A program made the position numbers and the translations under genes. From Shinella zoogloeoides (lineage in GTDB: Bacteria > Pseudomonadota > Alphaproteobacteria > Rhizobiales > Rhizobiaceae), in NCBI RefSeq assembly GCF_033705735.1, contig NZ_CP131130.1:3297501-3361500 (forward strand): a stretch of DNA of 64,000 nt. Reading direction: 5' to 3'. Below, one piece after another: positions 11,202-55,004 of the stretch (its first letter is position 1; each line of letters begins with the position of its first letter). Below the pieces are notes generated by a model. That model ran no database searches. It saw only the letters and a program-made list of their open reading frames with translations, and was not told the DNA's origin.

Positions 11202-13556
11202 ATGAACAAGCATACGACCGACCTCAAGGCCGAGAAGATCACCGGCGGCGTGCATTCCAGCCCCCGCCATGACTCCGCCCACAAGCATGTCGCCGGCACC
11301 GCCGTCTATATCGACGACATCACCGAGCCCGCCGGCACGCTGCATGGCGGCCTCGGCCTCTCCACCGTCGCCCATGGCGTCCTGAAATCCGTCGACCTCT
11401 CGGCGGTGCGCGCCGCCCCCGGCGTCGTCGCGGTGCTGACGCACGAGGACATTCCCGGCGTCAACGACATCTCGCCCTCGGGCATGCATGACGATCCGGT
11501 GCTTGCCGCCGGCAAGGTGGAGTTCCACGGCCAGCCGATCTTCTGCGTGATCGCCGAGACGCGCGAGGAAGCCCGCCGCGCCGCCCGGCTCGCGAAGATC
11601 GAATATGAGGAACTGCCGGCCGATATCGACATCTGGGATCTCGACCAGTCCACCCACCGCCAGGTCTTTCCGCCGCTGACGCTGAAGCGCGGCGATGCGG
11701 CCACCGCGCTCGACGGCGCCCCGCGCCGCGTGAAGGGCCGCATGCGGCTCGGCGGGCAGGACCATTTCTATCTCGAAGGCCAGGTCTCGCTCGCCGTACC
11801 GGGCGAGGACGACGAGGTCATGGTCCATTGCTCGACCCAGGGGCCGAGCGAGACGCAGCACATGATCGCCCATGCGCTCGGCGTGCCGAGCCATGCCGTG
11901 GCGGTGGAAGTGCGCCGCATGGGCGGCGGCTTCGGCGGCAAGGAAACGCAGGCGAACCAGTGCGCGGCGCTCGCCGCCATCGCCGCCAAGAAGCTGAACC
12001 GCGCCGTGAAGGTACGGCTCGACCGCGACGAGGACATGGTCGCCACCGGCAAGCGGCACGACTTCGCCATCGACTACGATGTCGGCTTCGACGAGGAGGG
12101 CCGCATCCTCGCCGTGGACTATACCTTCGCGCTTCGTGCCGGCTTTTCGGCCGACCTGTCCGGCCCGGTGGGCGACCGGGCGCTGTTCCACTGCGACAAC
12201 GCCTATTTCTTCCCGCATGTCCATGCCAAGACGGCGCTGCTGCATACCAACACGGTCTCGAACACCGCCTTCCGCGGCTTTGGCGGCCCGCAGGGCATGG
12301 TGGGCGCCGAGCGCGTCATCGACGAGGTGGCCTTCGCCGTCGGCAAGGACCCGCTCGAGATCCGCAAGCTGAATTTCTACGACGAGATCGGCGTCGAGGG
12401 CACCCGCAACCTCACGCCCTATCACCAGAAGGTCGAGGACTGCATCATCCAGCGCATCGTCGCCGAGCTGGAGCAGAGCGCCGACTATGCCGGCCGCCGC
12501 AAGGCGATCGCCGAATTCAACGCCGGGAGCCGCATCGTCAAGCGCGGCATCGCGCTGACACCGGTCAAGTTCGGCATCTCCTTCACCAAAACCGAATCCA
12601 ACCAGGCCGGCGCGCTGGTGCATGTCTATACGGACGGCTCCGTGCACATGAACCATGGCGGCACGGAAATGGGCCAGGGCCTGCATCTGAAGGTGGCGCA
12701 GGTCGTGGCGGAAGAGTTCCAGATCGATCTCGACCGGGTGAAGATCACCGCGACGACCACCGCCAAGGTGCCCAACACCTCGCCGACCGCCGCCTCCTCG
12801 GGCGCCGACCTCAACGGCATGGCGGCGCAGAATGCCGCCCGCCAGATCAAGGACCGGCTGATCGATTTTGCCGCGGAAAGCCATCAGGTCCCGCGCGACC
12901 AGGTCGTCTTCCTGCCCAACCGGGTGCGCATCGGCAATGCCGAGATCGCCTTCAACGATCTGGTCAAGCAGGCCTATATGGCGCGCGTCCAGCTCTCGGC
13001 GGCCGGCTTCTACAAGACGCCGAAGATCCACTGGGACCGCTCCAAGGGCCGCGGCCACGCCTTCTACTACTACGCCTATGGCGCGGCCTGCTCCGAAGTG
13101 TCCGTCGATACGCTGACCGGCGAATATGTCGTCGAGCGCACCGATATCCTGCACGATACCGGCCGCTCGCTGAACCGGATCATCGACATCGGTCAGGTCG
13201 AGGGCGGCTTCATCCAGGGCATGGGCTGGCTGACGACGGAGGAATTGTGGTGGGACGGCAAGGGGCGGCTGCGTACCCACGCGCCCTCCACCTACAAGAT
13301 CCCGCTCGCCTCGGACCGCCCGAAGATCTTCAACGTGGCGCTTACCGACTGGTCGGAAGCCTACGAGCCGACGATCCACCGCTCCAAGGCGGTCGGCGAA
13401 CCGCCGCTGCCGCTGGGTCTTTCCGTGCTGCATGCCCTGTCGGATGCGGTGGCGAGCGTGGCGGATCACAAGGTCTGCCCGAAGCTCGATGCTCCCGCGA
13501 CGCCCGAGCGCGTGCTGATGGCCATCGAGCGGCTGAAAGCCGGTAAAAAGGGGTGA
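11202..13556 (+). CDS. xdhB: Xanthine dehydrogenase molybdenum-binding subunit
   Basis: A 784-residue large subunit that binds molybdopterin and oxidises hypoxanthine and xanthine to urate. It shows RRMGGGFGGKETQ (cofactor binding), FRGFGGPQGM with the substrate-site arginine, and the catalytic glutamate in KAVGEPPLPLG (Glu733). Length is normal for the two-subunit bacterial enzyme. Confidence 0.97.
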   Translation: MNKHTTDLKAEKITGGVHSSPRHDSAHKHVAGTAVYIDDITEPAGTLHGGLGLSTVAHGVLKSVDLSAVRAAPGVVAVLTHEDIPGVNDISPSGMHDDPVLAAGKVEFHGQPIFCVIAETREEARRAARLAKIEYEELPADIDIWDLDQSTHRQVFPPLTLKRGDAATALDGAPRRVKGRMRLGGQDHFYLEGQVSLAVPGEDDEVMVHCSTQGPSETQHMIAHALGVPSHAVAVEVRRMGGGFGGKETQANQCAALAAIAAKKLNRAVKVRLDRDEDMVATGKRHDFAIDYDVGFDEEGRILAVDYTFALRAGFSADLSGPVGDRALFHCDNAYFFPHVHAKTALLHTNTVSNTAFRGFGGPQGMVGAERVIDEVAFAVGKDPLEIRKLNFYDEIGVEGTRNLTPYHQKVEDCIIQRIVAELEQSADYAGRRKAIAEFNAGSRIVKRGIALTPVKFGISFTKTESNQAGALVHVYTDGSVHMNHGGTEMGQGLHLKVAQVVAEEFQIDLDRVKITATTTAKVPNTSPTAASSGADLNGMAAQNAARQIKDRLIDFAAESHQVPRDQVVFLPNRVRIGNAEIAFNDLVKQAYMARVQLSAAGFYKTPKIHWDRSKGRGHAFYYYAYGAACSEVSVDTLTGEYVVERTDILHDTGRSLNRIIDIGQVEGGFIQGMGWLTTEELWWDGKGRLRTHAPSTYKIPLASDRPKIFNVALTDWSEAYEPTIHRSKAVGEPPLPLGLSVLHALSDAVASVADHKVCPKLDAPATPERVLMAIERLKAGKKG

Positions 13557-37644: not shown

Positions 37645-37899
37645 ATGAAGCAGAAAATCCGTGAAATCCTCAGCAAGCACGGCGGCCTTCCGGTTCCGGT
37701 CGATCAGCTCGCGGACGATGCCGATCTCTACGCGGCGGGCCTTTCCTCCTTCGCTTCCGTCCAGGTGATGCTCGGCATCGAGGACGCCTTCGACATCGAG
37801 TTCCCCGACAGCCTGCTCAACCGCAAGTCCTTCCAGAGCATCGCGGCTATCGCCCGGGCGGTGGAAAGCCTTGTCGGCAGCGCGGAGGCGGCCGAATGA
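37645..37899 (+). CDS. Acyl/aminoacyl carrier protein
   Basis: An 84-residue carrier protein. The attachment site is AAGLSSFASVQ, where Ser35 is the probable phosphopantetheine serine; the usual Asp before it is replaced by Ser34. Helix II continues VMLGIEDAFDIEFPD, as in acyl carrier proteins. It is not the fatty-acid AcpP, whose motif is DSL. A stand-alone carrier next to an amino acid:[carrier protein] ligase is the known partner arrangement in Bradyrhizobium and Agrobacterium. ATG at 37645 is preceded by GGGAG. The stop overlaps the next start by 4 nt. A phosphopantetheinyl transferase is not in the window. Confidence 0.9.
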   Translation: MKQKIREILSKHGGLPVPVDQLADDADLYAAGLSSFASVQVMLGIEDAFDIEFPDSLLNRKSFQSIAAIARAVESLVGSAEAAE

Positions 37900-39068
37900 C
37901 CGTCACCGTCGGGAGAGGCTACACGGAGCGCGCCGAGCGCGTCGCCGCCGTGGCTGCCGCGCATGCCGACGACGTGGACGCCAAGGGCCGCTTCCCCCGG
38001 GAAGCGGTCGACGCGATGATCGCCGAACGGCTGCTGTCGATCCAGATCCCCGCCGCGCTCGGCGGCGAGGACGCCTCGCTTTCGGAAATCGCCGAGATCT
38101 GCTCGCTGGTCGGCCAGAGCTGCGCGGCCGCCGCCATGGTCTTCGCCATGCACCACATCAAGCTGTCGAGCCTCGTCTCGCACGGCGCGGACGATCCCTG
38201 GCACGCCGGCTTCATGCGCCGGATCGCTGCCGGCCAATTGCTGCTCGCCTCGGCGACGACCGAGGGCGGCATCGGCGGGAACCTGCGCAACAGCATCTGC
38301 GCCATCGAGGTCGAGGGCGACACCTGCCGCCTCACCAAGGATGCGACGGTGATCTCCTACGGCGCCCATGCCGACGCGATCCTCATCACCTCGCGCGCCC
38401 ATGCCGAGGCCGCCTCGACCGACCAGGTCATGACCGTCTTCACCAGGGACCAGTACACGATCGAGCGGACCCATGTCTGGGATACGCTTGGCATGCGCGG
38501 CACCTGCTCGGATGGCTGGCTCTTCAAGGGCGAGGCGCCGAAGGCGCAAATCCTGCCGAAACCCTTTGCCGAGATCGCTGCCCAGTCGATGCTCGCCACC
38601 TCGCACCTCTTGTGGAGCGCGGTCTGGTACGGCATCGCCGTCAACGCGGTCGCCCGGGCGCAGGCCTTCGTGCGCGCCGCCGCCCGCAAGAGCCCCGGCG
38701 TCACACCGCCCGGCGCGCTGCGCCTCGCGGAAGCCTCCAACCTTCTCCAGCTCGTCAAGGCGAGCACGGTCGCTGGCCTTCGTGAATACGAGGCGGCCAA
38801 GGCGGATGCGGACCGGCTCTCCTCCGTCGGCTTCGCGGTGGCGATGAACAACGTCAAGATCGCCGCCTCGGAGACGATCCTTGCGATCGTCAACCAGGCC
38901 ATGCTGATCTGCGGCATCATGGGCTACAAGAACGGCACGCCCTTCAGCCTCGGCCGGCACCTGCGCGACGCGCATTCCGCCCAGCTCATGATTTCCAACG
39001 ACCGCATCCTCGGCAACACGTCGAACCTCCTGCTCGTCCACAAGCAGGACACCAGCCTGATCGGGTGA
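37896..39068 (+). CDS. Acyl-CoA dehydrogenase family flavoprotein
   Basis: A 390-residue protein with the acyl-CoA dehydrogenase layout: N-terminal helical domain (1 to about 120), beta-domain with [19 protein letters not shown], and C-terminal helical FAD domain (from about 240). It overlaps the carrier-protein gene (ATGA) and precedes the ligase by 4 nt, so all three products are made together. Flavoenzymes of this superfamily act on carrier-bound substrates elsewhere, for example on prolyl groups in pyrrole biosynthesis. By analogy this one may oxidise the aminoacyl group on the carrier. That is inference; an ordinary acyl-CoA substrate is possible. Confidence 0.85.
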
Positions 39069-39072
39069 CACC

Positions 39073-39987
39073 ATGGATATGCAGACCTCGCTTCTCGACC
39101 GGCTCTTCGATACCGGTCTTCTCATCGATACCGGCGTCGAGGGCCTCTACGGCCGCAGCGGCGCCTTCGAGGACGTCATCGCCCGCTTCGAGCGGCTGAT
39201 CGACGCCTATGGCGGCGCCGACGGCGCCGAAGCCATGCGCTTTCCCCCCGGCATGAGCCGCGCGCATTTCGAAAGCAGCGGCTACATGAAGAGCTTCCCG
39301 CAGCTTGCCGGCACGGTGCACAGCTTCTGCGGCAGCGAGCTCGACCATATGAGCCTCCTGCAATGCATGGAGGTCGGCGACGACTGGACGAAGGACCAGA
39401 AGGCGACGGACATCGTGCTGACGCCGGCGGCCTGCTACCCGCTCTATCCGACCATCGCCAAGCGCGGCCGCCTGCCGGCGAAGGGCGGGCTCTACGACCT
39501 GCAGTCCTACTGCTTCCGGCACGAGCCCTCCAACGATCCCGCCCGCCAGCAGCTCTTCCGCATGCGCGAATATGTCTGCATGGGCACTGAGGGTCATGTG
39601 ACGGATTTCCGCCAGAGCTGGATGGACCGTGGCCTCGAGATGATGGGCCGGCTCGGCCTCGACGTGACGATGGATGTCGCCAACGACCCGTTCTTCGGCC
39701 GTGCCGGCCGCATGCTCGCCAACAACCAGCGCGACCAGAACCTGAAGTTCGAGCTGCTCATCCCGGTGACCTCGGCCGCCAAGCCGACGGCCTGCATGAG
39801 CTTTAACTACCATCAGGACGCCTTCGGCGCGAAATGGGGCCTCCATCTCGAGAACGGCGACGTTGCGCATACCGCCTGCGTCGGTTTCGGCCTGGAGCGC
39901 ATCGCGCTCGCGCTCTTTGCTCGCCACGGCCTCGACATCGCCGTCTGGCCGGCCGATGTCCGCAAGGTGCTGGGATACCAGGACTGA
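39073..39987 (+). CDS. Amino acid:[carrier protein] ligase (truncated seryl-tRNA synthetase homologue)
   Basis: A 304-residue class II synthetase catalytic core without the tRNA-binding arm. Motif 2 is [11 protein letters not shown] (Arg149, Glu151) and motif 3 is [16 protein letters not shown] (Arg276). Cys121, Glu166 and Cys269 have the spacing of the zinc-binding Cys-Glu-Cys triad of methanogen-type SerRS and of the characterised carrier-protein ligases. Those enzymes activate small amino acids, chiefly glycine or alanine, with ATP and load them on a neighbouring carrier protein, not on tRNA. The carrier protein is encoded two genes upstream. Amino acid specificity cannot be read here. Confidence 0.9.
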
Positions 39988-39988
39988 C

Positions 39989-40957
39989 ATGGCCGCCGTC
40001 TTCGCCGGGCTCGACCCCGAAACCTACCGGCCGCACGCGCTGCACGACGCGGAACGCATGTGGCCGGAGACGAATTGCTATGTCGATCTGTGGATCGAGG
40101 TGCTGAACGCGCTCGGCGCCCCGCCCGAGGCGATGCTCGGCTTCACGCTGGCGCAGGATTTCGAGGGCGACCAGTTCACCTTCTTCAAGGTGCCGCTGGA
40201 AGACCTCGAAGCCCTCTACGGCATCCGCAGCACCGAGCTTGCCATCTTCGACCGGGTGGAGGACCACGTCGCGACGCAGATCGCCCGCGGCCGGCTCTGC
40301 CTCGTCGAGATGGACAGTTTCTACATGCCGGACACCCGCGGCGTCGCCTACCGGCAGGAGCACGGCAAGACGACCGTCGCGATCAACCGGCTCGACCTTG
40401 CGGCGAAGCGGCTCGACTATTTCCACAATGCCGGCTTCTTCCGGCTTGAAGGCGAGGATTTCGACGGCCTGTTCCACCGGAATGACGATCAAGCGGACCT
40501 GCCTTTCCTGCCCTATACGGAATTCGCTAAGTTCCCGGAAAGGCTGCCCGACGAGGTCCATCTTCGCCGCGAGGCGCAGCGCCTGCTCGCCGTCCACTTC
40601 GCCCGGCGCCCGTCGGAAAACCCGCTCGCGGCCTTCGCCAAGGTGTTCCCGGCGCAGGTCGAGGCCGTGGCGGATCGCCCCTTCGGCTTCTTCCACAAAT
40701 ATGCCTTCAACACGCTGCGCCAGGTCGGCGCCAATTTCGAGCTTGCCGGCAGCCATCTCGACTGGCTTGCGCCCGACGGCCACCTGAAGGACGCCGCCGA
40801 CGCCGCGCGCAAGGTCTCGGAGACGGCGAAGACGGTGCAGTTCCAGCTTGCCCGCGCCGTGACGCGCCGCCGGTTTGAACCGCTCGCGACCGCGCTCGAC
40901 CCGGCCGTCGAAGCCTGGGATGGCCTGATGGCGGCGCTCGCCGCGCGGATCGGCTGA
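39989..40957 (+). CDS. DUF1839 family protein
   Basis: A 322-residue protein of the DUF1839 family, with the characteristic HDAERMWPETNCYVDLWIEV opening, FTLAQDFEGDQFTFFKVP, and VEMDSFYMPDTRGVAYRQEH. The pattern of conserved Cys, Asp, Glu and His suggests an enzyme, but no known catalytic motif is obvious. No signal peptide or membrane helix. The start is 2 nt after the ligase stop, and the stop overlaps the next gene. Members commonly accompany the ligase, so a role in using or releasing the carrier-bound amino acid is a reasonable guess. Confidence 0.8.
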   Translation: MAAVFAGLDPETYRPHALHDAERMWPETNCYVDLWIEVLNALGAPPEAMLGFTLAQDFEGDQFTFFKVPLEDLEALYGIRSTELAIFDRVEDHVATQIARGRLCLVEMDSFYMPDTRGVAYRQEHGKTTVAINRLDLAAKRLDYFHNAGFFRLEGEDFDGLFHRNDDQADLPFLPYTEFAKFPERLPDEVHLRREAQRLLAVHFARRPSENPLAAFAKVFPAQVEAVADRPFGFFHKYAFNTLRQVGANFELAGSHLDWLAPDGHLKDAADAARKVSETAKTVQFQLARAVTRRRFEPLATALDPAVEAWDGLMAALAARIG

Positions 40958-43416
40958 TGGAGGACGGTGTGCCCGCGACCGGCAGGATGCTCTCTGACGG
41001 CTGGCGCATGATCCTGACGCCGGCCGGCGCGATCGCCGATCCGGCAGGGCTCGACGGTCTCTCCGGCTTCATCGACGCCCCCGTGCCCGGCACCGTCGCC
41101 GGGGCGCTGGAGCGCGCCGGCCGTTTCGACCGGACCGCGCCCGAGCCGCTCGACCATCTCGACGCCTGGTACGTCCTCGACCTTGCCGGCGAAGCGTCGG
41201 GCGAGGCTATGCTGCATTTCGACGGGCTCGCGACCGTGACGGAGGTCTGGTGGAACGGCGCGCCGGCGCTCTCCTGCGACAGCATGTTCGTGCGCCACGA
41301 TCTGCCCGTCACGCTGACGGGCCGCGACCGTCTCGTCCTCTGCTTCCGCGCCCTGAAGCCGCATCTCGAAAAGCGCGGCCCCCGCGCCCGCTGGCGCCCG
41401 CAGATGATCACGCCGCAGGGCCTTCGGCTCGTCCGCACCACCCTTCTCGGCCGCATGCCCGGCTGGTGCCCGGAGGTCCATGCCGCCGGCCCCTGGCGGC
41501 CGGTCCGCCTCTTACGGCCCGCGCCCGCGCTGCCGGCCGATGTGCGCATCGCCGCCCGTCTGGAGGAGGACGGTACCGGCCGGCTCGATATCCGCTTCCG
41601 CCTCGATGGCGCCGTGTCGCCGCGCGTCGAATGCGCCGGCATGGCCGTTGTCGCCGCGCGGGACGGGGAGGGCCGGTTTGCGGCAAGCCTTTCCATCCCC
41701 GGGGTCGCGGCATGGTGGCCGCGCACGCATGGCGCGCCCGTGCTGCACGATGTCCATCTCATTGTGGACGGCGCACGCCACAGGCTCGGCCGCACCGGCT
41801 TCCGCCGCATCGATATCGACCGCGGCGCGGACGGCCGGGATTTCGCACTCCATGTCAACGGCACGAGGATCTTCTGCCGCGGCGCGGTCTGGACCAATGC
41901 CGACATCGTCGACCTGCCGGGCAGCCGCGAGCGCTATGCGCCGCTCCTGAAACTGGCGGCGGATGCGAACATGAACATGCTGCGCATCGGCGGCACCATG
42001 ACCTATGAGACGCCGGATTTCTTTGCGCTTTGCGACGAGCTGGGGCTGATGGTCTGGCAGGACTTCCAGTTCGCCAATTTCGATTATCCGGCTAACGATC
42101 TCGCATTCATCGGGAATGTCCGCAAAGAAATCGCGCAGTTCCTCAAGGCCAATGCCGCCTCGCCGTCGCTTGCTGTCCTGTGCGGCGGCAGCGAGATCGA
42201 CCAGCAGGCGGCGATGCTCGGCCTGCCGGAAAGCGCCCGGGCCGGGCCGCTCACCCGCGAGATCCTGCCCGAACTCGTCGCCGCGCACCGGCCGGACGTG
42301 CCCTATGTCGAGAATTCGCCGGGCGGCGGCGCCATGCCCTTTGCGCCCAATGCTGGCGTGACGCACTATTACGGCGTCGGCGCCTATTGCCGGCCGCTGG
42401 AGGATGCGCGCCGCGCCGAGGTGCGCTTCGCCGCCGAAAGCCTCGCCTTCGCCAATGTGCCGGAACGCGAGACGCTCGACGCGCACCTGCCGGTGCCGGC
42501 CGTGCACGATCCGCGCTGGAAGGCTCGCGTGCCGCGCGACCGCGGCGCCTCCTGGGATTTCGAGGACGTGCGCGACCATTATCTCGGCCTGCTCTATGGC
42601 GAGGACCCGGCGCGCCTGCGCCGTGAGGATCCCGGCCGCTATCTCGACCTTTCCCGCGCTGTCACCGGCGAGGTGATGGAGGCGACCTTCGCCGAATGGC
42701 GCCGGCCGCAATCCACCTGCAACGGCGCGCTGGTCTGGACCTTCCAGGACCTGCTGCCCGGCGCGGGCTGGGGCATCGTCGATGCGACGGGCCTGCCGAA
42801 ATCCGCATGGCATGCCCTGCGCCGCGCCTTCCGCCCGGTGCAGCTCGTACTTTCCGACGAGGGCACGAACGGGCTCGATGTGCATGTCATCAACGACGGT
42901 GCGGAAGAACAGACCTTGACGCTGGAGCTTTCCTGCCTGCGCCACGGCCGCCAGCCGGTCGTCGGCGGGCGGCGGGAGGTCCGGCTCGCCCCGTATTCGG
43001 CTAAGACGCTGCCGGCGACCGACCTCTTCGGTGCGTTCTTCGACACGACCTATGCCTTCCGCTTCGGCCCGCCATCGCACGATGTCACGGTCGGCCGGCT
43101 GGTCGACGGCAACGGAACGGTGATCGCGGAGGCGTTCCACTTCCCGCGCGGCCGGGCGAAGGCGCTCTGTTCGGCAATGCTGTCGGCCGAGCTTCGGCAG
43201 GACGATGGAGAATGGCTGCTGGAGCTTTCCACGGACCGCTTCGTCCAGTCCGTTGCCGTCGAGGCCGAAGGCTTCCTGCCCTCGGACAACTGGTTCCACC
43301 TCGCGCCGGGCGGCGTGAAGGTGCTGCGCCTTGCGCCCCGCGCCGGCATGGACCCGGCGACGCGCCCGACCGGCGAAATCCGCGGCATCGGCGCCGATTC
43401 CGTCGTCTCCTTCTAG
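40957..43416 (+). CDS. Glycoside hydrolase family 2 protein, beta-mannosidase-like
   Basis: An 819-residue GH2-type protein. It has an N-terminal sugar-binding jelly roll (about 1-170), an immunoglobulin-like domain and a TIM barrel (about 280-600, with DLGSRERYAPLL-like entry, LMVWQDFQFANFDYP and a late NGALVWTFQDLLPG). The acid/base glutamate region reads LCGGSEID (Glu413), whereas the usual motif is NNE. The likely nucleophile region reads RFAAES (Glu494) in place of the canonical SEFG or SEYG. No signal peptide, so it is cytosolic. The start overlaps the DUF1839 stop (TGATG). Whether it is an active mannosidase is open. Confidence 0.85.
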   Translation: MEDGVPATGRMLSDGWRMILTPAGAIADPAGLDGLSGFIDAPVPGTVAGALERAGRFDRTAPEPLDHLDAWYVLDLAGEASGEAMLHFDGLATVTEVWWNGAPALSCDSMFVRHDLPVTLTGRDRLVLCFRALKPHLEKRGPRARWRPQMITPQGLRLVRTTLLGRMPGWCPEVHAAGPWRPVRLLRPAPALPADVRIAARLEEDGTGRLDIRFRLDGAVSPRVECAGMAVVAARDGEGRFAASLSIPGVAAWWPRTHGAPVLHDVHLIVDGARHRLGRTGFRRIDIDRGADGRDFALHVNGTRIFCRGAVWTNADIVDLPGSRERYAPLLKLAADANMNMLRIGGTMTYETPDFFALCDELGLMVWQDFQFANFDYPANDLAFIGNVRKEIAQFLKANAASPSLAVLCGGSEIDQQAAMLGLPESARAGPLTREILPELVAAHRPDVPYVENSPGGGAMPFAPNAGVTHYYGVGAYCRPLEDARRAEVRFAAESLAFANVPERETLDAHLPVPAVHDPRWKARVPRDRGASWDFEDVRDHYLGLLYGEDPARLRREDPGRYLDLSRAVTGEVMEATFAEWRRPQSTCNGALVWTFQDLLPGAGWGIVDATGLPKSAWHALRRAFRPVQLVLSDEGTNGLDVHVINDGAEEQTLTLELSCLRHGRQPVVGGRREVRLAPYSAKTLPATDLFGAFFDTTYAFRFGPPSHDVTVGRLVDGNGTVIAEAFHFPRGRAKALCSAMLSAELRQDDGEWLLELSTDRFVQSVAVEAEGFLPSDNWFHLAPGGVKVLRLAPRAGMDPATRPTGEIRGIGADSVVSF

Positions 43417-52160: not shown

Positions 52161-52730
52161 TCAGTCCTTGGCGCGTTCCACGTAGGAACCGTCTTCCGTC
52201 GCGATGACGACGCGGGTGCCGGCAGTGATATGCGGCGGGACCAGCGTGCGAACGCCGTTCGACAGCATCGCCGGCTTGTAGGAAGAGGAGGCCGTCTGGC
52301 CCTTCACGACCGGTTCGGTCTCGGTGATCTCGAGCGTGACGTGGCGCGGCAGGTCGATGGCGATCGCGACGCCCTCGTGCACGGAAAGAACGACCGTCAT
52401 GCCTTCCTGCAGGTAGGCCTTGAGGTCGCCGATGTCTTCCTGCGACATGGTGAGCTGGTCGTAGGTTTCCGGGTTCATGAAGTGGTAGCCGTCGCCGTCT
52501 TCATAAAGATAGTTGTGCTCGCGATCCTCGACGAAGGCGCGCTCGACCTGCTCGGTCGTGCGGTAGCGCTCGGAAACCTTGGTGCCGTCGGAGATGCGGC
52601 GCATGTCGACCTGCGTGACCGGCGTGCCCTTGCCCGGGTGGAAGTTCTGCGCCGTCAGCACGACATAGAGCTTGCCTTCGACCTCGAGGACATTGCCCTT
52701 GCGGACGGAAGAGGCGATGATCTTTACCAT
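52161..52730 (-). CDS. efp: Elongation factor P
   Basis: A 189-residue EF-P with three beta-barrel domains, which relieves ribosome stalling at proline runs. The tip of domain I reads FHPGKGTP with Lys34, the residue that EpmA modifies with beta-lysine. ATG at 52730 fits the family start ([19 protein letters not shown]). It is divergent from epmA and epmB across 151 bp, so all the visible factors for this modification are coded together. Confidence 0.97.
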
Positions 52731-52881
52731 AAGTCTTCCTTGTAACTGGATGGTTCGCGTCGTAGAGGACCGCCACAAGACGTTTCCGCGAACGCTGAAA
52801 ATACGTTTTCGGGGCCGCAACTACCCTATATTCCGGCAAAAGACCAGTCTTGCCGCCGGCATCGCCGAAGAAACCTGTCAC

Positions 52882-53946
52882 ATGAGCGCCACAAGCCTGA
52901 AGCCCTCGCCCTGGTGGACGCCCGACGTCCATGCCGACCGCCGGCCGTTCCTGATGGCGCGAAACCGCATCCAGGCGGCGCTGCGCGGCTGGTTTGCCGC
53001 GCGCGACTTCGTCGAGGTGGACACCGCGACATTGCAGGTCTCGCCCGGCAACGAGGCGCATCTGCATGCCTTCGAGACCGCCGCCATCGGCCATGCAGGC
53101 ACACAGACGCCGCTCTACCTGCACACCTCGCCGGAATTCGCCTGCAAGAAGCTGCTGGCGGCGGGCGAGCGGCGCATCGCCTGCTTCGCCCATGTCTACC
53201 GCAACCGCGAGCGCGGCCCGCTGCACCATCCCGAATTCACCATGCTGGAATGGTATCGCGCCGGCGAGACCTATGACGTGCTGATGGCCGATTGCGGCGA
53301 GATGCTCGCGCTCGCCGCCGAAACGGCCGGCGTCTCCCTTCTTTCTTATCGCGGCGCGACCTGCGATCCCGCGCGGCCGCCCGAGCGGCTGACGGTGGCC
53401 GATGCCTTCACGCGCCACGCCGGCATCGATCTCCTCGCGACGATCCGCGCCGATGGTTCGACGGATCGCGAGACCCTTGCCGCCGCCATGCGGGCCAGGG
53501 ATCTCCGCGTTGCGGATGACGACACCTGGGCCGATCTCTTCAGCCGCGTGCTGGTGGAAAAGGTCGAGCCGGAACTCGGCTTCGGCCGCGCCACCATCCT
53601 CTGCGAATACCCGACGGCGGAAGCAGCGCTGGCGCGACCCGCGCCGCACGATCCGCGCGTCGCCGAGCGCTTCGAGCTCTATGCCTGCGGCGTGGAGCTC
53701 GCCAATGCCTTCGGAGAGCTGACGGACGCCGCCGAGCAGCGCCGCCGCTTCGAGCTGGAAATGGCGGAAAAGGCCCGCGTCTATGGCGAGACCTATCCGC
53801 TCGACGAGGACTTTCTCGCCGCCCTCGCTCTCATGCCGGAAGCGAGCGGCATCGCGCTCGGCTTCGACCGTCTCGTCATGCTGGCGACCGGCGCGCGCCG
53901 AATCGGCCAGGTGCTCTGGGCGCCCGTTGCGGAGACTGCGCCGTGA
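52882..53946 (+). CDS. epmA: EF-P lysyltransferase EpmA (GenX/PoxA)
   Basis: A 354-residue class II synthetase-like enzyme related to lysyl-tRNA synthetase without an anticodon domain. It joins (R)-beta-lysine to Lys34 of EF-P. Motif 2 is FAHVYRNRERGPLHHPEFTM, and motif 3 is ALGFDRLVMLATGARRIGQV. ATG at 52882 agrees with the family start. Its stop overlaps the epmB start codon (GTGA). Confidence 0.96.
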   Translation: MSATSLKPSPWWTPDVHADRRPFLMARNRIQAALRGWFAARDFVEVDTATLQVSPGNEAHLHAFETAAIGHAGTQTPLYLHTSPEFACKKLLAAGERRIACFAHVYRNRERGPLHHPEFTMLEWYRAGETYDVLMADCGEMLALAAETAGVSLLSYRGATCDPARPPERLTVADAFTRHAGIDLLATIRADGSTDRETLAAAMRARDLRVADDDTWADLFSRVLVEKVEPELGFGRATILCEYPTAEAALARPAPHDPRVAERFELYACGVELANAFGELTDAAEQRRRFELEMAEKARVYGETYPLDEDFLAALALMPEASGIALGFDRLVMLATGARRIGQVLWAPVAETAP

Positions 53947-55004
53947 CGGCCGCGCGCAGCCTGACCACGGTTGCCGAACTTGCCGCCGCCGGCCTCCTGC
54001 CCGAGGAGAAGCGGCCCGCCGCGACCGCCGTTGCCGAGCGCTACGCCGTCGCCGTCACGCCCGCGCTCGCCGCGTTGATCGACGCGGACGATCCGCTCGA
54101 TCCCATCGCCCGCCAGTTCATCCCCGATGCCGCCGAGCTCGTCACCCTGCCGGAAGAGCGCGCCGATCCGATCGGCGACCTCGCGCACAGCCCCGTCGAG
54201 GGCATCGTGCATCGCTATCCGGATCGCGTGCTGCTCAAGGCCGTGCATGTCTGCCCAGTCTATTGCCGCTTCTGCTTCCGCCGCGAGATGGTCGGCCCGG
54301 AAGGGCTCGGTACCCTGTCACCCGGGGCGCTCGATACGGCCATCGCCTATATCGCGGAGCGGCCGGAGATCTGGGAGGTCATCCTGACGGGCGGCGATCC
54401 GCTCGTCCTCTCCCCGCGCCGCCTCAAGGCGATCATGGAGCGGCTTGCGGCAATCGAGCATGTTAAGATCGTCCGCTTCCACAGCCGCGTCCCCGTCGTC
54501 GATCCCGAGCGCATCGATGCCGCGCTCATCGAAGCCCTGAAGGCCTCCGGCAAGACGACCTATGTGGCGCTCCACGCCAACCATCCGCGCGAATTCACGG
54601 CCGAAGCCCGCGCCGCCATCGCCCGCATCGTCGATGCCGGCATGGTGATGATCAGCCAGACGGTGCTTCTCAGGGGCGTCAACGACGATGCAGAGGTGCT
54701 GGCGAGCCTGATGCGCACCTTCGTCGAGAACCGCGTGAAACCCTATTACCTGCACCACCCCGACCTCGCCCCCGGCACGGCCCATTTCCGCCTCTCGCTC
54801 GCCGAAGGCCGGGCGCTGGTTGAGAGCCTGCGCGGCCGCATCTCCGGCCTCTGCCAGCCGGCCTATATCCTGGATATCCCCGGCGGCCACGGCAAGGTGC
54901 GGGCGGATTCCCCGGCGGTGGAGGAAGCCGACGACGGCTGTTTCCGTTTGCGCGATTTCCGCGGGGAGACGCATATCTATCCGCCGGAGGAAGGGCTGGC
55001 CTAG
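53943..55004 (+). CDS. epmB: EF-P beta-lysylation radical SAM protein EpmB
   Basis: A 353-residue lysine 2,3-aminomutase-like radical SAM protein. The cluster motif is CPVYCRFCFRRE (Cys104, Cys108, Cys111). PLP binding is expected near the C-terminus, where QPAYILDIPGGHGKV is typical of the KamA family. It starts with GTG overlapping epmA. Position beside efp and epmA makes EpmB the best call over a catabolic lysine 2,3-aminomutase. It converts L-lysine to (R)-beta-lysine for EpmA. Confidence 0.93.
   Translation: MTAARSLTTVAELAAAGLLPEEKRPAATAVAERYAVAVTPALAALIDADDPLDPIARQFIPDAAELVTLPEERADPIGDLAHSPVEGIVHRYPDRVLLKAVHVCPVYCRFCFRREMVGPEGLGTLSPGALDTAIAYIAERPEIWEVILTGGDPLVLSPRRLKAIMERLAAIEHVKIVRFHSRVPVVDPERIDAALIEALKASGKTTYVALHANHPREFTAEARAAIARIVDAGMVMISQTVLLRGVNDDAEVLASLMRTFVENRVKPYYLHHPDLAPGTAHFRLSLAEGRALVESLRGRISGLCQPAYILDIPGGHGKVRADSPAVEEADDGCFRLRDFRGETHIYPPEEGLA

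Follow-up and report, generated by a model that had tools for sequence, protein, structure and literature searches.

A conserved five-gene operon of Shinella zoogloeoides as a candidate carrier-protein pathway for decorating exopolysaccharide sugars with amino acids

Introduction

The closest described relatives of the system considered here are amino acid:[carrier protein] ligases, which have a seryl-tRNA synthetase (SerRS)-like core of about 300 amino acids (aa) and no tRNA-binding arm; Gly, Ala and Ser are given as family substrates in a review table, and the available part of that 2022 review calls the biological role of carrier loading by these enzymes still unknown (PMC9437257). In the available parts of further papers, a PhaR study lists bll0957 and bll0958 ('acd') of B. 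diazoefficiens together in a table (PMC10888616), Atu2573 is named in a hub-gene list only (PMC11941606), and PMC2922099 concerns class-I synthetases. Clear homologues of the ligase and carrier of the 3mey/4h2w/2jq4 (Bll0957, Atu2571) systems lie in a five-gene operon of Shinella zoogloeoides, which is the subject of this analysis. The stretch analysed, called the window below, comprises 64,000 nucleotides (nt) of contig NZ_CP131130.1 (positions 3,297,501 to 3,361,500), and all coordinates without a locus name refer to it.

All five genes are on the + strand. They encode a stand-alone aminoacyl carrier protein (37645-37899; 84 aa, PF00550, PRK07081 at 124 bits), a flavoenzyme of the acyl-CoA-dehydrogenase fold (37896-39068; 390 aa, PF02771 and PF00441), the amino acid:[carrier protein] ligase (39073-39987; 304 aa, PRK07080), a DUF1839 protein proposed to be a papain-fold aminoacyl-carrier amide synthase (39989-40957; 322 aa, PF08893 at 455 bits) and a GH2 protein of the beta-mannosidase group (40957-43416; 819 aa, PF22666). 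A first-pass annotation had described these genes as joined by overlaps or gaps of at most 4 nt, and the gene coordinates bear this out with the families matched: in gene order the junctions are a 4-nt overlap, a 4-nt gap, a 1-nt gap and a 1-nt overlap. Against two other Shinella the five genes have ratios of non-synonymous to synonymous change (dN/dS) of 0.09-0.26 (polA in the same comparison, 0.07-0.09), and the ligase shares 99% identity with its S. zoogloeoides PQ7 counterpart. A promoter and terminator scan gave no signal above shuffles, and a literature search that lacked most subscription journals found no published function assignment for the five-gene operon. The reading put forward here, to which a probability of roughly 0.5 is given, is that the operon encodes a carrier-protein pathway decorating an exopolysaccharide amino sugar with a small amino acid, possibly a modified one.

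Conservation of the operon

Three sets of loci were compared, namely (i) a close set from one scan of species genomes, consisting of the best 80 of 425 ligase relatives, (ii) a phylum set from 398 Pseudomonadota genomes, consisting of 16 stretches that cover 17 DUF1839 places outside the window (L100 holds two) and (iii) a family set, for which the carrier query matched 43 of 199 genomes of the window's family and 20 of these 43 were fetched, all with a carrier score above 100 bits and thus biased to nearer relatives. Some loci recur between sets (L008/L200, L009/L199, L029/L102, L052/L103 and L062/L190).

The five genes keep the same order and strand in 79/80 close loci, the exception (L065) being a contig that starts inside the flavoenzyme gene and leaves the carrier out of reach. 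Fifteen stretches of the phylum set hold the operon, in order in every case (14 by scripted count and L100 by coordinates, its second DUF1839 copy having scored best); the sixteenth, L099, is a second DUF1839 copy on another contig. The full gene order is found in 20/20 loci of the family set. Locus L080 of R. leguminosarum 3841 contains all five genes. Flanking genes vary between loci while the five-gene order stays. DUF1839 occurs in 16 of the 398 Pseudomonadota genomes and the ligase above cut-off in 28 (44 with weak matches included), and all 16 fall among the 28. Pairwise distances of the five proteins over 21 operons correlate with r of 0.84-0.97 and 0/500 permutations reach such values, although this is weak evidence because permutation leaves shared ancestry in. 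A fusion of flavoenzyme and ligase, considered for open frames of 667-704 aa in four loci, was rejected: the two are separate genes in L109, L110, L113 and L114.

The five genes thus form one operon, conserved beyond chance, and probably act in one pathway. The first-pass annotation had proposed a search for conserved order in related genomes as the check on its view of a single operon and a single pathway; the search has now been run, the genes clearly stay together, and the view is supported.

DUF1839 and GH2 proteins

The predicted fold of the DUF1839 protein matches CcbD and CtaG over the whole length, and repeated entries of these two proteins make up 12 of the 14 top rows of the fold table, whose rows were not used to exclude any family. 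Cys30 (40076-40078), His125 and His146 occur together in 95/97 loci sequences and in 62/62 of our own selection A4, and are the presumed catalytic residues. Fold and residues together support a transfer or release step for this protein, as had been suggested earlier.

In two genomes the DUF1839 of the operon lacks the catalytic Cys, and another copy that has it lies near ManC and Wzc matches (L100:7449-8366 and 12262-13185; L108:9435-10418 and L099:91-1125), possibly as an active/inactive pair. Some public DUF1839 records bear the name serine--tRNA ligase or succinylarginine dihydrolase, apparently through misannotation.

The GH2 protein matches beta-mannosidases by profile (5n6u, E 4.8e-82, profile positions 37-798). 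Its Glu413 (42193-42195) and Glu494 (42436-42438) are aligned with what we take to be the catalytic pair of these enzymes and are invariant in 15 sequences. Membership of the beta-mannosidase group with both catalytic Glu kept suggests that a glycan is handled. No signal peptide was seen by eye.

Polysaccharide context

Among the genes around DUF1839 operons are those for a flippase, chain-length proteins, a sugar transferase (PF02397), ManC-type proteins, Wza- and Wzc-like proteins, glycosyltransferases and a GH5 protein; the label Wzy was given to one neighbour by eye, that protein having no family match. The commonest neighbour is a fused twin alpha/beta hydrolase resembling exosortase-A hydrolase 2 plus hydrolase 1, below cut-off. 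When counted by a 100-bit rule, with markers picked because they had been seen near operons, the twin hydrolase or another marker is present in 58/80 close, 14/16 phylum and 16/20 family loci (56/78, 7/9 and 14/17 without the seven marker-source loci, copies and repeats). The controls gave 0/20 for stretches about 100 kb from the operon (17 in family-set and 3 in phylum-set genomes), 0/8 for distant ligase loci and 3/12 for ligase loci without DUF1839, each of the three a chain-length protein only. For the twin hydrolase alone the counts are 55/80, 10/16 and 13/20 (without sources and repeats 53/78, 6/9 and 11/17), and all three controls are empty (0/20, 0/8 and 0/12). Of the 13 family-set cases, 12 have the twin hydrolase gene converging on the GH2 end of the operon within 300 nt.

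With class limits set post hoc (TIGR03100 E 1e-13 to 4e-22, frame 580-1111 aa), the fused hydrolase occurs among 150 genomes only in the five that have DUF1839, two of which (G000 and G107) carry it away from the operon; a genome without DUF1839, G126, matches TIGR03100 more strongly, in a frame of 620 aa that falls slightly outside these limits. Within Shinella, the operon is flanked on either side by polysaccharide genes, between polA and YigZ, in three sister loci (L004, L008 and L009), and L007 has them on both sides with polA out of reach; in L011 and L012 they lie on the polA side, the other side having a glycosyltransferase only, while L005 has a GH5 gene only and L006 one chain-length match. 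An exosortase system was considered and set aside: a PF09721 exosortase is found in 1/16 DUF1839 genomes and 0/16 others. Glycan linkers with N-seryl and N-glycyl sugars are described for two species in the available part of one paper, whose authors speculate about amino-acid-modified sugars as possible products of exosortase-bearing bacteria (PMC7468200).

Several points weigh against the exopolysaccharide reading. Besides the choice of markers just mentioned, 22/80 close loci have no marker under the 100-bit rule (including Shinella L002, L003, L005 and L010), and the window operon has no polysaccharide gene beside it, so that linkage has to be inferred from relatives; the twin hydrolase of the window genome (41%) is at C1:1.73 Mb, about 1.6 Mb from the operon, and has glycosyltransferase and chain-length matches around it. 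In L102, no amino-sugar synthesis gene was found among the seven polysaccharide-type genes scanned, which leaves the proposed acceptor without direct support. The fold match comes from one VIA-align run over a Foldseek ranking, with root mean square deviations (rmsd) of 3.6-4.2 at 9-14% identity, and fold similarity shows no function; a link at the sequence level from DUF1839 to CcbD or CtaG was not found. Membership of DUF1839 in the BtrH family was rejected, with hhalign P of 0.03-0.04 and a probability below 2%, and PF14399 (BtrH) had no match at E 10 for five DUF1839 proteins; hhalign with mact 0.01 does give a whole-length BtrH alignment with Cys30 on the BtrH Cys, the score unchanged, and was not counted. 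Finally, Ser412 of the GH2 protein replaces the usual Asn before the acid/base Glu in at least 90% of 15 sequences, which an altered 2-position of the substrate sugar would explain.

The bare surroundings of the operon in the window strain and in those 22 close loci would suit a pathway in which the same enzymes make a small soluble glycoconjugate (a signal, siderophore or antibiotic-like compound) with the polysaccharide genes as mere neighbours, and CcbD and CtaG do serve small-molecule pathways. The strong polysaccharide linkage relative to control stretches, in Rhizobiaceae and in other families, argues against such a product, which is considered unlikely, if worth keeping in mind.

Ligase, carrier and flavoenzyme

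The ligase scores 508 bits against PRK07080/NF005479 (cut-off 357), and it matches the structures 4h2w (E 1.9e-99) and 3mey (E 1e-94). Cys121 (39433-39435), Glu166 (39568-39570) and Cys269 (39877-39879), a triad already noted in the first-pass annotation and taken here to be metal ligands, are conserved in at least 95% of the 41 ligases aligned. The nearest solved relatives of the carrier are the 'aminoacyl carrier protein' of 4h2w and Atu2571 (2jq4); its Ser35 (37747-37749), presumably the phosphopantetheine attachment site judging by the motif, is kept in at least 95% of 32 sequences. In L187, a locus of the window's family with all five genes and the twin hydrolase, the carrier shows no difference from the printed Atu2571 sequence over 82 residues, and hence the solved carrier type that has been studied belongs to the five-gene operon. 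The earlier proposal of amino acid loading on the stand-alone carrier is supported, such loading having been reported for relatives.

In 12 ligase genomes without DUF1839, the flavoenzyme adjoins the ligase in 12/12 and a carrier is nearby in 9/12 (strict script) or 10/12 (blastp), while neither DUF1839 nor the GH2 of the operon is found in the fetched stretches; the ligase tree splits the two groups. Carrier, flavoenzyme and ligase, which stay together when DUF1839 is missing, therefore form the core, and DUF1839 and GH2 are a module gained or lost together. The place of the flavoenzyme in the core argues for action on the carrier-bound amino acid. In eight ligase loci that are more distant (28-30% identity), the same search found no other gene of the five.

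Other arrangements were seen around related ligases. Directly after a Bradyrhizobium-type ligase, L145:8785-9660 encodes a 291-aa protein without Pfam match, a candidate for the step taken elsewhere by DUF1839, and L145-L150 have proteins of 291-310 aa at the same place. L152:10473-13807, another locus without DUF1839, continues after flavoenzyme and ligase with genes for an Abhydrolase_3 protein, a protein of 85 aa that has no Pfam match and an AMP-binding ligase. A distant ligase relative in L160:8214-15413 is accompanied by an AurF-type N-oxygenase, two carrier-size proteins (one with a PP-binding match), a NAD_binding_4 protein, a rubrerythrin-like protein and an AMP ligase, and an N-oxygenated aminoacyl group is a possible product. 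The distant loci L163:7772-11293 and L164:2910-6430 combine a polysaccharide deacetylase, ligase, carrier and GNAT protein; apart from the carrier, these are the kinds of enzyme that the VimE/VimA route to N-aminoacyl sugars uses. Genes for EF-P, a tRNA-synt_2 (EpmA-like) protein and a Radical_SAM (EpmB-like) protein lie at 52161-55004, about 9 kb downstream of the operon; in Rhizobium L031 an EpmA-like/EpmB-like pair is directly upstream of the carrier gene, so that two synthetase paralogues adjoin there.

The flavoenzyme matches the N- and C-terminal acyl-CoA dehydrogenase domains of Pfam above cut-offs (32.9 and 25.5 bits), and all its profile matches are remote (dehydrogenases at best 1e-26, nitrososynthase DnmZ 3.6e-19, DszC 6.9e-16). 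In alignments it lacks a Glu at either of two known dehydrogenase base positions: Ile366 (38991-38993) stands at the position of the MCAD catalytic Glu and Ser236 at the IVD/LCAD site, both positions being ones that we take to be those of the base and the IVD site having been placed by hand. The best printed dehydrogenase match, 7p98, likewise has no Glu at the MCAD position. The motif W195-x3-GMR, with Trp195 invariant, is common to the flavoenzyme, DnmZ and KijD3 in two printed alignments and is not in three printed dehydrogenases. No reductase is among the five operon genes; the genome was not searched for one. Oxygenation or amine oxidation is favoured, with low confidence, as the reaction of the flavoenzyme.

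The first-pass annotation had instead likened the flavoenzyme to those of prolyl-carrier oxidation, with dehydrogenation of the aminoacyl-carrier followed by release or trimming of the product by DUF1839 and GH2. The Pfam domains, the presence of the prolyl-ACP dehydrogenase 4irn among the (remote) profile matches at E 4.5e-14 and the persistence of the flavoenzyme beside the ligase without DUF1839 agree with this, but the idea is weakened by Ile366 and Ser236 in place of Glu and by the 25 bits that are all the PigA model yields; if glycine is loaded, alpha,beta-desaturation would be impossible because the group is glycyl. Dehydrogenation of this type is now regarded as improbable.

Proposed pathway

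Under the exopolysaccharide reading, the ligase would use ATP to activate a small amino acid and load it on the carrier phosphopantetheine, as reported for relatives. The flavoenzyme would then tailor the carrier-bound aminoacyl group by an oxidation without the Glu typical of dehydrogenases, for which imine formation or oxygenation at N or C fits better than alpha,beta-desaturation. Next, as the predicted fold and Cys30/His125/His146 suggest, the group could move from the carrier to Cys30 of DUF1839 and from there to a sugar amine with formation of an amide, for which CcbD in celesticetin synthesis serves as the model. The GH2 protein might edit or recycle the sugar-containing acceptor in the cytoplasm, and the decorated unit would enter the exopolysaccharide of the neighbouring genes (of unlinked genes in the window strain), with the twin hydrolase as the usual partner. 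Operon, fold match and polysaccharide linkage are tool results; acceptor, product and flavoenzyme step are what we infer.

DUF1839 has also been modelled as papain-like with a Cys-(Thr/Ser)-His triad and a guessed role in glycan processing at the cell wall, according to the available part of that study (PMC10318531). Such an assignment would suit a hydrolase (peptidase, amidase or thioesterase) that removes glycan groups or clears mis-loaded carrier, an option given little weight here. An intramolecular reaction on the carrier-bound amino acid without transfer, like the ring closure by AziU3, is highly improbable, as CcbD and CtaG, the repeated entries behind 12/14 top fold rows, are both described as transferring from a carrier and the glycan context needs a transfer step.

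A more specific version of the exopolysaccharide reading is tentatively offered: an exosortase-independent route to an unusual exopolysaccharide sugar with an amide-linked, flavin-oxidised small amino acid (e.g. an N-oxygenated glycyl group) might be the purpose of the ligases in one large clade, and DUF1839 would then be a new branch of carrier-dependent amide synthases beside CcbD and CtaG. If the reading holds, a ligase family whose purpose was called unknown in the available part of the 2022 review gains a testable role (PMC9437257), and aminoacyl-tRNA-synthetase paralogues become tied to the chemistry of surface polysaccharides, which are important for attachment and symbiosis in rhizobia and other soil and plant-associated bacteria. 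New relative to the earlier annotation are the exopolysaccharide context in relatives, the partnership with the twin hydrolase and a predicted DUF1839 fold like that of CcbD and CtaG; this fold and the polysaccharide linkage make the question of the ligase role directly testable.

Comparison with known systems

Bradyrhizobium-type ligase loci, unlike the window operon, have neither DUF1839 nor the GH2 of the operon in the fetched stretches. With the condensing enzymes of lincosamide synthesis, CcbD and LmbD, the DUF1839 protein has in common a predicted fold over the whole length and a catalytic Cys, as well as, in the proposal, a carrier-bound amino acid as donor and a sugar amine as acceptor. 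The published triad of CcbD is Cys-His-Glu, whereas Cys-(Thr/Ser)-His was modelled for DUF1839 in the available part of the source (PMC10318531), and there is no detectable sequence similarity. CtaG, described as a peptidyl transferase, matches DUF1839 over its whole length by fold alone. BtrH (PF14399), of about 335 aa with a papain-like and a second domain, transfers from acyl carrier protein to aminoglycoside and is a functional analogy only.

In the Wbp/Vim pathway an amino acid is amide-linked to a glycan sugar, as is proposed here, but the transfer is attributed to VimA, a putative N-acetyltransferase, and no papain-fold enzyme is named in the available part of the paper (PMC7468200). 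In exosortase-A (XrtA) polysaccharide loci a small carrier, a ligase (TIGR03098) or decarboxylase (TIGR03099) and the hydrolase pair stand close together, which resembles the loci studied here; their ligase is of another family, and the hydrolases are fused and below cut-off in DUF1839 loci. Among four exosortase-type loci fetched (L217-L220), L217 has the TIGR03098 ligase, a small carrier and hydrolases 2 and 1, L220 both hydrolases, the TIGR03099 decarboxylase and a small carrier, and L219 ligase and decarboxylase near hydrolase 1, L218 being left unresolved by the gene list. The design of exosortase-A loci parallels that of the DUF1839 loci, with a different ligase family in the same role. 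The pieces of the five-gene operon are known; their combination is new.

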